A DNA stretch of 64,000 nt from Periplaneta americana. Taxonomy: Eukaryota; Arthropoda; Insecta; Blattodea; Blattidae. Both the position numbers and the translations under genes were made by a program. The stretch covers positions 100,869,774-100,933,773 of the forward strand of contig NC_091119.1 in assembly GCF_040183065.1 (NCBI RefSeq), given 5' to 3'. Positions within the stretch are counted from its first letter, which is position 1, and each line of letters begins with the position of its first letter. Positions 2,060 through 25,191 of the stretch are shown piece after piece. A model generated the notes under the pieces. That model saw only the letters and a program-made list of their open reading frames with translations, was not told the DNA's origin and ran no database searches.

Positions 2060-3375
2060 TTGTTGTTGTTTTCTAATACCAGGCACTTGACAATAAAGTC
2101 ATTTGACCTCTTGCACTCCAATATTTTTAAAAAATATTATCATAGTCAGCTACTGAAGCACAGATTTTGAGGTGTTCCGAATTCATTTCTTGGTTATAGT
2201 TGCACAATGGGCAGTTAGGAAACTGATATATTTCAATTCTATGCAGGTGTTTGGCCAAACAATCATGGCCTGTTGCCAATCTAAATGCAGCTACAGACGA
2301 TTTTTGTGGTAAATTGGGAATTAGTTGTGGATTATGATGCAGAGAGTTCCATTTTTTTCCCTTGAGATTGTGTTATCAAATTTTACTTGTTGAAGTTTAA
2401 GTATGTAGATTTAATAAATCTTTTCACAGAATAATACGTAGATTTAGTAACAGGTCTGCAAATAGCAGTGCTGCCCTTTTTTGCTAAAGAATCTGCATTG
2501 TCGTTTCCCAAAATTCCACAATGGGATGGTATCCATTGGAATACAATTCTTTTATTGAGTGATATTAATTGAGAGAGCATTTTAGTTATTTCTGCTGTTT
2601 GAGATGAAGGTGTGTGTTTAGAGAGTATTGATAGAATAGCCGCTTTGGAGTCTGACAATATAACTGCATTTTTAAATTTATTGATGTGGCATAGAAGATT
2701 CCTGAGACTTTCACTTATTGTAATGATTTCTCCACCAAAACTTGTTGTTCCATATCCAAGAGATCTATAAAGTGAGAAGAGACAGCACGTAACACCTGCA
2801 CCGGCACCTTGTTCTCTGGAGATCAAATATAAATGAAGCCAGTTTTGTGGAGGGTACCTAATATTAATTGTCTCTAAAGACAATTGTTTCATTATTTCAG
2901 TGTTTACTTCCGATTTCAGTATTTCTTCTGTTAAATTTAGATTATATTCTATATTTAATAGAGTTAAAGGGTTTGGTTTAATTTGTAAGTTTTCTTTTAA
3001 TATCGGGATATTGATTTTCTGTTTTAATTCTTGAACCATGGATATGAAACTTTGAGTTTTCCATCTACAGAAAGGACTGTATGAATGCCAATTGTTTCCT
3101 GGTAATGTAATAAGTTTTTCATATTGAATCAGTGTTTTCGCTTCTATTGCCATTTTGATGCTGTTAATATTAGTGAGGAATCTCACAGAATCTATTAGAG
3201 TTGTTTTGATTCCACCATTAATGAGCCTGAGAGCTTGGTTTTGAACATATTATATTTCGTTTGTGAAAGGTGAAGTAATTAAAATTTCTCCGCAGTATGT
3301 CAGCACTGGCTGTATAAACATTTTGTATGTAGTGTTTAAAGTATTACTAGAGCATCCCCATTTCTTTCCTGCTAG
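2060..3375 (-). mobile_element. LINE family A, copy 1: 5'-truncated non-LTR retrotransposon
   Basis: On the minus strand this carries the end of the reverse transcriptase, the RNase H domain and the 3' UTR, ending in a CAA-rich tail near 2060. It matches the last ~1.3 kb of the copy at 4280-6847 almost throughout. Homology stops abruptly at 3375, as expected for target-primed 5' truncation. RNase H after the RT places it in the I/R1/LOA-type group of LINEs. The two copies lie in opposite orientation. Confidence 0.85.
2383..3186 (-). pseudogene. RT thumb plus RNase H region of LINE family A, first catalytic Asp lost
   Basis: This is a 267-codon open frame. Its first half aligns with the RT C-terminal region of the sister copy. 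The second half is RNase H, with 'ILSDSKAAILSIL' and 'VFQWIPSHCGILGN' followed by 'NADSLAKK'. In the sister copy the domain begins 'WLHLYTDGSLISRE'. Here the sequence goes directly 'WLHLYLISRE', an in-frame loss of four codons (TDGS) that removes the first metal-binding aspartate. The open frame is therefore deceptive and the RNase H should be inactive. The annotated Met is internal to the original polyprotein. Confidence 0.85.
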
Positions 3376-18969: not shown

Positions 18970-18977
18970 CTGTTAAC
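18970..18977. repeat. 8-bp target-site duplication, left
   Basis: CTGTTAAC, repeated perfectly at 25082-25089. Confidence 0.9.
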
Positions 18978-19029
18978 CAGTGGCGGCTCCTGCATATTTC
19001 TTAAGAGGAGGAAAGAAATAATCTGTTAG

Positions 19030-20390
19030 GAAAGCGAGAACACTGCACCCACCCACGTGGTCTGTGTTGCCACATGTACATTTTATAAGTCAGTATCACA
19101 TGCTGACTATCAGTTCTTGTAATGTCATACTACCATTATTGTTCAAAGCTGCCGGTGGCCGATTAATTTTTTTATGTTAAAAATAATGTAGTTTGCAGTT
19201 CCTTCAATTTCAAATATATTTGTACAAAACTGACAACTTGGCTGTTGTCCTGTCTACTAGACAATGAATGGAAGTGAATTTCAGAGGTCAAAAAGGTCTG
19301 CAATACTAACTTAGAACTACTTCCTCTTTTTGTTTTATATAAATCCAACTTCAAATTTCAGATATCCTCGAAAGTTTCAAACCATGAATATAGCTTATAT
19401 AAAGTGCAATGAATATATTTTGATTTGTAATTTAAAAAAAAAGTTTATATGGTGTCTTTCATAGCTTTGCGTTAAAACTGTTTTTATTGTGTCTCCTCCT
19501 AGATGACGTGTTATAGTCAGGTTGAATGCAGCATCGTTAGATGGCAGCGGTAGCGAGCTTGCTGCAGAGCAGTGTATATTAGAGAGTACTGCATTCTCGA
19601 TGGCGGCAGCCATATTTACTCCTTGCTGGGCACAAAAGCGTAAGCAATAATGCTAGAACGATGGTGATTAAAGGCGGTATCATACATGTTGTTGTAGTTT
19701 ATTGAACACAGGAGACAAGAATTAATAAACATTATTGTCATAGTGAAATGACTCATGAGAGATAACACTTTATTTTTAAATGTTATATCCATTTCAATAG
19801 GGATAACATCAGCAATTTTCTAGTGCAATTCTCACACCAACATTTCGATGCCACATTTAACAAATTATTGTCGTGGATTTGCTATAACAGACAATTTTCT
19901 CAACAATAAATATATTCTAGTCCTAAAATAGTGATAAGACTTTTTCAAATATATTATAACGAATTGGGAACGTATGAGTTGAAGTGTTAATGAATAAAGA
20001 CTTCAAATCCTTTAGTGTCAATACATTTTCTATCAACGTTACACATTTTTCTGCATTTAGAATTATATCAAACACGAATATTTACAAGGGTGTACGTGAC
20101 ATTTCCATGTACGACTTGAGAGTCACTAATATGCTAATAAAATTTATGGAATCATCCCTGTTATCAGTTATTACATATGAAATACAGTTTTCATAAATAT
20201 TATATAACTTATTTTGTTTTATTTTGAATAAAACTGATCCCAACAAATGAATCACCCGGTTTGAAAACCGCGTAAGTCCACCAAAAACGAAAAAGCAGTT
20301 TTACGCGGCAGCATGTTCTTCTTGGTGATGCACATCGTCATGGGAATGGAAACGAAGTTAGTCCATCTCCAACCCATGTTTGTAAGCAAT
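19030..20390. other. Left arm of the composite, no gene recognised
   Basis: AT-rich, with short open frames only. It holds the subterminal inverted block noted for the composite. A stretch at about 20265-20305 (AAAACCGCGTAAG and TTTTACGCGG) is a short imperfect inverted pair upstream of the DUF7869-like gene. Confidence 0.4.
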
Positions 20391-20402
20391 GACAATGTGA
20401 TC

Positions 20403-20520
20403 CCAGGAATGAAAAGCGTGGTTGTCCTGGACTTACTGGATTTTCAAACCTGGTTTTAATCAGGAATGAAAAGCGTTTTTGTCCTGGTCGTGCTGGATGT
20501 TCAAACCTCGTATTTAATAT
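20403..20520 (+). repeat. Two tandem ~58-bp copies
   Basis: 'CAGGAATGAAAAGCGT' begins each copy (20403 and 20461), followed by 'TTGTCCTGG' and 'TTCAAACCT' blocks in the same order. It lies about 130 bp upstream of the first exon of the DUF7869-like gene and could be part of its 5' regulatory or terminal region. Confidence 0.7.
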
Positions 20521-20651
20521 GAAGAATACTTTAATAAAATTTATAATAATACTAGGATAGCGCACACTTTAATTTATGAAACAGTGCTGCCACCTACCCA
20601 TAGCTTGCGGCCTGTGACAGTCAGTTTTTGCATCACAGCTGATTATTTAAA

Positions 20652-22850
20652 ATGGCTGAATCAAGTGATACAAGTAGCAGTGAACAGTGTCTAAAACGAC
20701 GAAAACTTCGCCCTGAGACGTGGAAGAGCGTCGTGAACAAGAAAGCACGAGTGGCAGGAAAAGAATATGAAGACTACAAAGGCCGTAAGCATCCGGCCAG
20801 ATCTACAGGACGGGATTGCAGGTGTGTAACATAGCTACTACATTGTGCAGTGTAGGTTATAGGCTATCGGCAATAAAATAGCACGTACATGCCATGGCGA
20901 TCATACAATAATACTTATCTATTCTTGTTGTTTATACTAGATGTAAGAGGTCGTGCACTACAAAATTTTCCAATGGTGTGAAGAAACAGATCCTGAAAGA
21001 GTTTTACAACATAGGAAGTAAAGATGGTCAGGATGCGTTTCTCGCGGCTTTGATATCCCCAAAGAGTGTTCAACGTCGGAGACCACGATCAGACGATCCG
21101 TGATTCATACGCACTCAGAGCTTTACATACAAGGTTAGTCACCACTGCTTATTTTATAATAAGGTTTCCAACTTGAATCTGGAGCCTCAGCCGGACATGA
21201 TGAACGTTCGCAGATTATTTTTTCATGGGAGAGAGTTTATATTACAATGGCGATGGCGCCTATGCCTGTTATTATTGTTATTGTTATTATTGTTATTATT
21301 ATTATTATTATTATCATTATTATTATTGTTGTTACATTTATTATAAACTTACATTCCCCTTGAAATTTCTCCTCTTATGTTTATTACATTTTCTTTGTAG
21401 ATTCAGATTGGAGTCGAATCGCATGTTGTTTGCGCAAAAGCGTTTTGCAGTCTCTTCGGTATTTCAGAGACCAGAGTGCACCGCGTAGCCAACTATGCTG
21501 CTCTTGGAAAATCACCACGAGATCAGCGTGGGAGAAATCCTGCAAGCTCGAGGGCGCTCAAGAACACCCTAGTTGAAACAATAGACGAGCATATTCGCTC
21601 GTTCCCCTATAGAACATCGCATTACGGAGCGTCTGGGAAGAAGAAGCGGTATCTGGAAACAGGTTTGAGTGTAATGAAAATGTATGAACTTTTTCTGGAA
21701 AAATATTATCCTGAATGTTACTTGAAAGTTAAAGCGGGAGCTGACATCGAGAGAGTAAAGTGCCCAATAAAGTATGATTACTACCGAAAGTATTTTAATG
21801 AGAATTTTGGTTACTCTTTTGGATGCCCTAAAGTTGATGCATGTAACACCTGTGAAAAGCTGCAAATGGAAATATCACAAGAAAAAAATAAAATCGTGAA
21901 AGTCAATTTGGAGACTGAGTTAACACTTCATAAAAGGAAGGCCAAAAAGTTTTACACCAATTTACGAGCATGCCAGGAAAGGGCACAGGAAGATGACACT
22001 GTTGAATGTTTAATTTTCTATTTTCAGCAGAACATGCCAGTGCCTCATCTCCCTGTTAATGAGATATTCTATCTCCGACAGATTTGGGTTTATAATTTGT
22101 GCATTTTCAGTGGGAAGAATCAAACAGGGAAAATGTATATGTGGGCCGAATATGACGCTAAACGAGGTGTCAACGAAGTGGTGTCATGCTTGCGGAACTA
22201 CATAGAGAACTATGTACCTGATACAGTCAAAACTTTGTACTTGTTTAGTGACGCCTGTCCAGGACAAAATTTAAACAATACAATGGTGCATTTTTGCTAC
22301 ACTTTAATACAGTCTGACTGGTTCAATGATGTACAACATTATTTACCAATACGAGGCCACAGTTACCTTCCATGTGACCGTTGTTTCTCGGTCATTGAAA
22401 GAATGAAGAAAAAGGCTGAAAGAATAGAGATGCCACAAGGATGGTATGACATGAAAATATGATGTTGTGGTCATGAAGGGAGAAGATTTTAGGGAACATA
22501 AAGAGTTCCTAAAGGGTTATTTCAAAAAAAGTATAACCAAGAGTGGCAGAAAGTTCACGGTATCCAAGTATAAGGTACTGACGTACAGTAGTGCACACGA
22601 GTTTCAGGTCAAAACATCAGAGAACATGAGTGGTGAGCCGTGTGAGTACTTCCGAATTTGTAAACCTAGAACAGGTGTGATCTCGCTACCAAACACTCCA
22701 TTGTACACAAACAGGCAGCGTGTCAAGTCTTGCAAACTGGATGATATAAAGAAGTTGTGTAAATATTTAAGCAAGGATGCACAGAACTTGTATAACTCTT
22801 TACCGTCACAGGAAGATGAGGATGACTACAGCGATGGCAGTAATGCCTGA
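20652..22850 (+). pseudogene. DUF7869-like gene, three exons, one nonsense codon and one frameshift
   Basis: Exon 1 (20652-20821) starts 'MAESSDTSSSEQCLKRRKLR'. Intron 1 is 20822-20940 (GTGTGT...ACTAG). Exon 2 (20941-21133) carries a Cys/Lys-rich 'CRCKRSCTTKFSNG' region and an in-frame TGA at 21101. Intron 2 (GTTAGT...TTGTAG) holds a TTA-rich microsatellite. Exon 3 (21401-22850) has 'KVDACNTCEKLQMEI', then the core 'LIFYFQQNMPVPHLPV', 'YLFSDACPGQNLNNTMVHF' and 'RGHSYLPCDRCFSVI'. Exon phases join exactly. A one-base insertion near 22456 breaks the frame before the C-terminus ('GEDFREHKEFLKGYF'). An AATAAA is at about 22899. I recall this core as DUF7869, common in insects. The spaced acidic residues suggest an RNase H/DDE-like fold, but that is inference. 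A second C-terminus lies at 59680-60196. Confidence 0.75.
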
Positions 22851-23255
22851 TTTACTGATGTAATGACCTAATCTGTATTCAATAATTCATTTTGTAACAA
22901 TAAAATACTTCTTTAGACATCAGGTGTACATATAAACTACCCATGGCATCCACCTTCCTGCTAATCATGTCCAAGAATCGAAAAGATGCAAGTCCAGGTC
23001 ATTTAAACCCGCATAAATACATCCTGATTGCACATATCTGCAATAATGTTTATGATATATGTGTAGGTATGAAAACTCTCTAAAATGAATCCACAGTCAT
23101 CACTTTTTCACAGAAAGTAATGCATTTACAACGTTTTTTGTCTCTCCTGTAAAATTTGCTTCTTTGGACTTAATGCATTTCCATTCCTGGTCATTCAAAT
23201 AGTAAAGAGCTTGTTCACTCGAGTCAATATTTCCATTTTCAGTTAAATTAAAATT
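22851..23255. other. 3' flank of the DUF7869-like gene
   Basis: Contains AATAAA at about 22899-22904, consistent with the 3' end of the upstream gene. No other feature is seen. Confidence 0.45.
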
Positions 23256-23259
23256 TAGC

Positions 23260-23640
23260 CTATATCAATTTCTTTTGCTCACATTCATCTTCACTAGACC
23301 TTTCTGTTTCGGGTTTACTTACATCTGTACCTAGAAACTCAACTAATTGTTCAGAATCGCAAACTGCATAATTTTCATGCTTTTTTTTTTTTTTCTTCAG
23401 AAAAAACTGATGAATCGTAATGCAGTTTATTAATACTATTGCATCCGGGATTGGATTTAAGGATCGGACATTAGAAAATAAATTTTCTAACGCAACCTGA
23501 GTGCATCTATCTAGCATAAGATATTTGAAGTTCCCTTTATTGAGACAATTTCTTGAAAATTCAAGAACTGTTTTTATTACCAGCATTATACCAGTTTGGA
23601 ATAGTTTCCAACGTCCGCTTTTCTCCACCTTGATATTTTA
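23260..23640 (-). pseudogene. P-element/THAP9-like transposase C-terminal fragment
   Basis: The minus frame reads 'KYLMLDRCTQVALENLFSNV' and then 'NPIPDAIVLINCITIHQF'. This resembles the C-terminal block of P-element-type transposases, in which 'RLTQDALENFFG'-like sequence precedes a helix. The upstream 'FQTGIMLVIKTVLEFSRNCL' also fits. A lysine run (A8-10 homopolymer) and an acidic tail follow. The N-terminal THAP and catalytic parts are absent, and a LINE starts directly upstream. Confidence 0.6.
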
Positions 23641-23654
23641 AATTATAAATATTA

Positions 23655-24480
23655 CGTCATTATACTTATGGCTTTTAAGGAAACCGGAGATTCAATGCCG
23701 CCCTCACATAAGCTCGTCATCGGTCCCTATCTTAAACAAGATTAATACAGTCTCTACCATCATATCCCACCTACCTCAAATCCATTTTATTGTTGTCCTC
23801 CCATCTACGTCTCGACCTCCCCAAAGGTCTTTTCCCTCCGGCTTCCCAACAATACGCTATATAGATTTCTGGATTCGCCCATACGTGGTACATGCCCTGG
23901 ATTTAATGTTCCTAATTGTGTCAGGTGAAGAATACAATGCGTGCAGTTCTGGGTTGTGTAACTTTCTCCATTCTCCTGTAACTTCATCCCTCTTAGCCTC
24001 AAATATTTTCCTAAGAACCTTATTCTCTAACACTCATAACTTCTGTTCCTCTCTCGAAGTGAGAGTTCAAGTTTCACAACCATACAGAACAACCGGTAAT
24101 ATAACTGTTTTATAAATTCTAATTTTCAGATTTTTTTATAGCAAACCAGATGACAAAATCTTCTCAGCCGAATAATAACAAGCATTTCCCATATTTATTC
24201 TGCGTTTAATTTCCTCCCGAGTGTCATTTATATTTGTTACTGTTGCTCCAAGATATATTAATTTTTATACCTCTTTGAAGGATAAATTTCTAATTTTTGT
24301 ATTTCCATTCCATATAATATTCTGATCACGAGACATAATCATATACTTTGTCTTTTCGGGATTTAGTTCCAAACATATCACTTTACTTGCTTCAGTAAAG
24401 TTCCCGTGTTTTCCCTAACAGTTTGTGTATTTTCTACTAATATATTCATGTCACCTGCATAGACAATAAGCTGTAATGCT
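23655..24480 (-). mobile_element. LINE family G fragment (RT C-terminal region)
   Basis: Minus-strand pieces include 'GNTGTLLKQVK', 'IRILYGMEIQKLEIYP', 'YYRLFCMVVKLELSLRERNR', 'YLRLRGMKLQENGESYTTQN' and the family G ending over 23660-23850. Frames break many times. It inserted into or beside the P-like fragment inside the 6.1-kb composite. Confidence 0.7.
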
Positions 24481-25081
24481 AATTCAGTACAACAGCAATT
24501 GATTACACATTGATTAACAGCACAACAACACGGCATTCTTCATGATAACGATGGAATATCACACTAGAAACCTGTGTTAATACACAAGTCTTGCGGTGTA
24601 CTGAGTCTCCCCAGGAGTAAATATGGCAGCCGCGTCGACATTTGTCGGATCAAAAGACTGCGGTACTCTCCAATATACACTGCTCTGGCTTGCTGCAAGA
24701 CCAGTTGGTTTCTATTTCCCGCTCATGCGCTGATTCAGAGGAGGATCTCCTCCCTATCCATTCATTTACTTGCTTTAAAACTCTGCTTCTTTCTCTGGCC
24801 GCTACTGCACTGTTGTCTATGTGTGTTAACTGCAGTAAAGGAGGAATGGATTGATTTTCCTCCACATAAACAATCTCGCATCCTTCTCACAGTTTTCTAC
24901 AGCACATGAGCGCGCGTTGTTTAAAACTCGATCAACCGAGGTTTTCTTATAGCTGTGAACTTAAAAATTATCGAATCTTCCTCGAATTTCAAGGCATATA
25001 TTTCATTTGATACTTATTTTCAAAAGAAGAAAAATGTGAGGAGGACGTTCCTCCCTTCCCTCACCCCAGGAACCGCCACTG
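24481..25081. other. Right arm of the 6.1-kb composite
   Basis: Non-coding hAT subterminal sequence with an inverted match to the left arm (around 24595-24700) and the terminal inverted repeat at 25067-25081. The overlapping open frames on both strands are shadows of this repeat. Confidence 0.6.
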
Positions 25082-25191
25082 CTGTTAACGTACCTACAGT
25101 AACGAATATATTATACCTGCTTCATAGGAAGCTTCTACCTGAAAGCCACATTTGCATAATATATTCGTTACTTCAGATTTGTCTTCCTCAG
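25082..25191. other. TSD plus short hairpin upstream of a candidate exon
   Basis: The right TSD CTGTTAAC is at 25082-25089. 'GTAACGAATATATTAT' near 25099-25114 is repeated inverted near 25156-25171, a hairpin with a ~40-base loop. A pyrimidine-rich acceptor ends at 25191. Confidence 0.6.

Follow-up and report, generated by a model that had tools for sequence, protein, structure and literature searches.

Three nested DNA transposons in Periplaneta americana and a probable transposase role for DUF7869

Positions 18978 to 25081 of the DNA analysed here, a window of 64,000 nucleotides from Periplaneta americana, are occupied by three nested transposons: a hAT-type MITE holds a high-copy middle element, which in its turn holds a transposon bearing a gene with a DUF7869 domain (Table 1). 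We have high confidence in an explanation of the whole that combines this three-layer nest with a DUF7869 protein that would act as the DDD/E transposase of its own element, within the Sola2 group or near it. What had been supposed to be a captured gene thus becomes a textbook nest. The nest itself is ordinary; the useful part is a function for a "DUF", as the Pfam family DUF7869, of unknown function, gains evidence as a transposase domain.

Table 1. Features of the nest and their positions in the window
Feature	Position	Strand	Remarks
Left 8-bp TSD of outer element	18970..18977		CTGTTAAC
Outer hAT-type non-autonomous element (MITE)	18978..25081	+	Own sequence 18978-19564 and 24696-25081
Left 8-bp TSD of middle element	19557..19564		GCTTGCTG
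Middle element, high-copy	19565..24687		33-nt TIRs CAGAGCAGTG...; ~2.2 kb without the DUF7869 insert
Left 4-bp TSD of DUF7869 element	20245..20248		AAAT
DUF7869 transposon, 2948 bp	20249..23196	+	Imperfect TIRs GAATCACCCGG... / GAATGACCAGG...
Exon 1 of DUF7869 gene	20652..20821	+	Inferred splice sites
Exon 2 of DUF7869 gene	20941..21133	+	Inferred splice sites; stop found in the window copy only, among copies compared
Exon 3 of DUF7869 gene	21401..22850	+	Holds the DUF7869 domain; frameshift in the window copy
Right 4-bp TSD of DUF7869 element	23197..23200		AAAT
P-like fragment	23260..23637	-	Belongs to the middle element; found in L058 and L059 too
LINE-like dispersed repeat piece	23663..24309	-	Belongs to the middle element; within L058 and L059; strand and LINE identity by eye
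Right 8-bp TSD of middle element	24688..24695		GCTTGCTG
Right 8-bp TSD of outer element	25082..25089		CTGTTAAC

Layers of the nest

The outer unit, which an earlier note on this DNA had described as a perfect 8-bp TSD with matching ends, is real, and its 15-nt ends are 93% complementary. CAG-type ends together with an 8-bp TSD are typical of hAT elements. As the note had also reported, the unit shows no hAT transposase, either in the list of open reading frames examined by eye or in a Pfam search with eight of them, which makes it non-autonomous at most. The genome searched comprises 3.23 Gb in 91 contigs, and a query of 123 bases from the left end gave 1020 candidates; of the 40 that were scored, those matching over the full length were the window copy and nine others. 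Seven of these nine (L002-L008) were read with 1.5-kb flanks. They are 90-95% identical to the window, and the interior is absent from every one of them, as window sequence from 18978 to 19565-19573 joins that from 24688 or 24690 onward. Six copies have exact ends; these measure 965-985 bp, and all have CAG-type TIRs and a perfect 8-bp TSD, as does the window copy; L003 had no exact-end match and stands outside this count. Because all seven copies join the two halves directly, positions 19565-24687 were added later to what is a hAT-type MITE of ~1 kb. The outer element is like other hAT MITEs in its CAG-type ends, 8-bp TSD, size of ~1 kb, presence in several copies and lack of a visible transposase, and unlike them in that two nested insertions have swollen the window copy to 6.1 kb.

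Two further observations concern the surroundings of this MITE. Thirty of the 40 scored left-end matches begin only at query base 33-38 (about 19010-19015) and are 96-98% identical, so the subterminal sequence seems to be common to a more abundant family with other outer ends, or the search clipped the ends. Just beyond the right end of the unit, at 25098-25172, there is a perfect 17-nt inverted repeat, AGTAACGAATATATTAT, with a spacing of 41 nt.

The TIRs of the middle element are 33 nt long and 91% complementary. The earlier note had proposed a comparison of empty sites. When the stretches on either side of the DUF7869 insert were joined and used as a query, all 40 scored matches (of 449 first-look candidates) crossed the join, with 93-97% identity. 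Four of these 40 copies were fetched and read. Two (L058 and L059) are uninterrupted middle elements of ~2.16 kb that include the P-like and LINE-like pieces, and the other two (L060 and L061) are 1.72-kb forms without 23366-23814. The 8-bp TSD is perfect in the window and in three of the four copies read, the exception being L058. P elements have an 8-bp TSD and a TIR of about 31 bp; the 8-bp TSD and 33-nt arms of the middle element agree with this description and also fit hAT. In its TIRs, 8-bp TSD and high copy number the element resembles P-element-like or hAT-like elements, and the P identity of its coding remnant was read by eye.

The earlier note had named a P-like fragment and a LINE within the outer unit. 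Both sequences are real, and both names come from reading by eye. For the P-like fragment, no P family was found in Pfam at E≤1 and a PDB sequence search at E≤10 gave two unrelated matches only, and Pfam showed no LINE match for two open reading frames of the other piece. The latter is a dispersed repeat, with matches of 78-86% in four of 15 other loci.

The nesting of the layers allows us to infer an order of three separate cut-and-paste insertions. The hAT-type MITE would have inserted first and generated its 8-bp TSD, the high-copy element with an 8-bp TSD would then have entered the MITE, and the DUF7869 element would have come last, entering the middle element with a 4-bp AAAT TSD.

Two other accounts would tie the DUF7869 gene to one of the enclosing elements. 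The earlier note had raised the idea that a hAT element captured the gene, by transduplication, and moves it as cargo, and the gene is indeed enclosed by perfect hAT-type ends with an 8-bp TSD; however, none of the seven other hAT copies examined holds it, the gene is in a TIR/TSD unit of its own with a 4-bp TSD, inside another TSD-flanked element, and the stretches fetched around 15 other loci of the gene contain no hAT sequence. Capture is refuted by the seven gene-free copies and the separate inner unit, the two outcomes that the earlier note had named as refuting it, and we regard it as having next to no chance of being correct. The position of the gene between the TIRs of the middle element could likewise suggest that DUF7869 is the transposase of that 8-bp-TSD element, but the gene is absent from this site in all 40 scored copies, middle-element flanks are absent, bar one 31-nt match, from the stretches fetched at the 15 further loci of the gene, and the gene has separate TIRs and a 4-bp TSD. 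The empty sites refute this account as well, and it is as remote as the capture. Since the stretches fetched at the other loci are, that match aside, without hAT or middle-element sequence, the DUF7869 element moves on its own. The second possibility in the earlier note, in which the gene is a mobile element in its own right and inserted into a non-autonomous hAT, was essentially right, and what it did not foresee was one extra layer. Two further sets of TIRs and TSDs within the outer unit had been overlooked. The note's argument that the introns speak against an RNA-mediated origin fits a DNA transposon.

Boundaries and copies of the DUF7869 element

The innermost element begins with GAATCACCCGG... 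and finishes with ...CCTGGTCATTC, and its two ends are identical at 9 of the first 12 and 24 of the first 40 positions. No gene other than the three-exon DUF7869 gene was recognised in the full-length element. A genome search with the DUF7869 exon as query produced 47 matches (39 candidates). Four other copies among them are 97-99% identical, and 15 of the regions were fetched. BLAST similarity begins at 20241-20251 in 12 of these 15 loci and stops at 23197-23217 in nine. The TSD is ATAT in L039 and AATT in both L040 and L041.

Of the 15 copies with readable end pairs, 10 have a perfect 4-bp TSD, compared with a mean of 3.5 for shuffled pairs (P 2.5e-5); the shuffling retains the AT-rich target preference, and the P-value is somewhat flattering because the boundary had been placed by eye on the basis of the same young copies. 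Eight of the ten perfect pairs are AATT, AAAT or ATAT and two are AACT or ACTT, and one of the ten (C8:70.88) requires an altered first base of the element. Of the five imperfect pairs, three have a single mismatch and L053 has two, and at C4:84.80 the two sides are unrelated. For the count, seven further copies were chosen and had their ends fetched, with one pair completing L042; the pairs were re-derived by pattern for seven copies and L053, and L045 has two candidate ends, of which one matches. Outside the count are C10:96.47, one of these further copies, which is ambiguous, and L043, L047, L049, L050, L051 and L052, which have no readable end pair.

One internal deletion, joining ~20606 to ~22292, is common to derivatives of the element at ten loci. 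Ends were read for five of the ten and gave two perfect and different TSDs (AACT and AAAT), one pair AACT/AATT, one ambiguous pair and one with no TSD. Two differing targets would be expected of a non-autonomous derivative that moves in trans, and the deletion derivatives appear to have been mobilised in trans by the DUF7869 protein.

The domain is widespread in this genome, where PF25273 gave 2969 first-look candidates and all 150 scored loci lay above the curated cut-off; none of 14 control genomes was positive. Searches for relatives in viral contigs and prokaryote genomes gave 2, 25 and 40 pattern-matching stretches, with none confirmed. Four other loci were read (L054-L057), and all hold the domain, at 28-38% identity to L039. 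At L055 an open reading frame of 625 aa lies in a 2521-bp unit in which 34 of 40 terminal positions match and the TSD is AATT; AATT and GAATACT were found just upstream of the stretch first read, as had been expected beforehand from the right end. A second copy of this family elsewhere has the TSD AAAT. The unit at L057 is 1373 bp long, with 36 of 40 terminal positions matching and the TSD ATTT. At L054 and L056, the remaining two of the four loci, no element ends were recognised.

DUF7869 as a candidate transposase

In the three-exon DUF7869-like gene of the earlier note, the domain in exon 3 is confirmed by a match to PF25273 (E 1.7e-10). With inferred splice sites, L039 and L040 each have an uninterrupted frame of 606 codons, and the frame of L041 stops at 469. 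In the window copy the frame is broken within exon 2 by a stop that follows 110 residues, and Tyr replaces the Asp of the DFQ motif (exon 3 residue 207); because of this stop, the exon 3 frameshift and the changed motif Asp, the copy is dead, with no protein possible. The 31 differences between L039 and L040 comprise 12 synonymous (pS 0.032) and 19 non-synonymous (pN 0.013) changes, and the resulting pN/pS of ~0.4 is weak evidence that the protein was under constraint in the past.

Alignment of five DUF7869 proteins gave three Asp columns, of which DFQ and PCD are conserved in all five and SDxC in four, L056 having Asn at this second column; the DFQ of L054 is read in another frame. Three such columns are as expected of a DDD transposase and would represent its putative catalytic triad. 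An AlphaFold2 model of the exon 3 open reading frame alone, from a single sequence, had a mean pLDDT of 37, a quality too low to reveal an RNase H fold. A profile of the five sequences matched no PDB chain at E≤1, and an NCBIfam search with three DUF7869 open reading frames led nowhere.

Judged from the sequences, the most likely role of the DUF7869 protein is that of DDD/E transposase of its own element. It would bind the GAATC-type TIRs, excise the element and integrate it into AT-rich targets of 4 bp (AWWT-like), and it would also act in trans on internally deleted derivatives. The protein might instead be a passenger between ends that some other transposase moves, and this would sit with the many copies that are non-autonomous deletion derivatives and with a catalytic activity that is putative; against it, DUF7869 is the sole gene recognised in the full-length element, the gene lies between TIRs in three unlike TIR families of the genome, and the Asp columns are conserved. 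We consider a passenger role improbable. On the evidence for a transposase domain, the many genes that bear DUF7869 in this genome are better annotated as transposons than as host genes. The two copies with open frames and the many deletion derivatives make the assignment of DUF7869 as a transposase directly testable.

Relation to Sola2 and subterminal repeats

The founding paper of the Sola superfamily is reportedly that of Bao et al. in 2009. AT-rich 4-bp TSDs of the Sola2 type occur in the window family and in two other DUF7869 families (AATT, AAAT, ATTT), and the window element has short imperfect TIRs of the Sola2 type. Sola2 elements are described with AT-rich 4-bp TSDs of the form AWWT (ATAT, AAAT, ATTT) and TIRs of 12-21 bp (PMC3627910), and Sola elements as encoding DDD transposases and having 4-bp TSDs (PMC10741241). 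Set against these descriptions, the DUF7869 elements are alike in their 4-bp AT-rich TSDs, short imperfect TIRs and large transposase gene, and unlike in that some copies target AACT or ACTT, outside AWWT. They are also small (2.5-2.9 kb), in contrast to the amoebal elements of PMC3627910, which have an 888-aa transposase and 7-kb shared stretches.

By the style of its TSDs and TIRs, the DUF7869 element would fit best within the Sola2 group or close to it. That it is a true member of Sola2 is probable. We use the name Sola2-like, for elements whose TSDs and TIRs agree well with the published description. These intron-bearing, AT-targeting cut-and-paste elements with 4-bp TSDs could also constitute an undescribed superfamily distinct from Sola2, in which case DUF7869 transposons would be a very abundant example of it in this genome (2969 first-look candidates). 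In support of this, neither "DUF7869" nor any of five motif strings tried appears in the open-licence literature searched, and the likeness to Sola2 is one of TSD and TIR style. Nor does any text there combine transposase, Sola and Repbase with the phrase "domain of unknown function". On the other side, the TSDs AAAT, ATAT, ATTT and AATT and the short imperfect TIRs fit Sola2 as described in PMC3627910. We consider a separate superfamily unlikely, though a good deal less so than a passenger role for the protein, and retain the placement in or near Sola2.

Some smaller features of these elements were also recorded. Beside one copy of the DUF7869 element, at L040:131-1438, there is an uninterrupted open reading frame of 436 aa that is mariner/IS630-like by eye. 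In the 5' subterminal part of the window element, a 57-bp tandem duplication (82% identical) lies at 20404-20517 and has an inverted partner at 20254-20280, and these are possible candidates for transposase binding repeats. Downstream of the open reading frame of L056, at 2894-3105, there is an inverted repeat with TAAGTCCA, a word whose recurrence close to the ends of the window element hints at putative transposase binding sites common to the two families.
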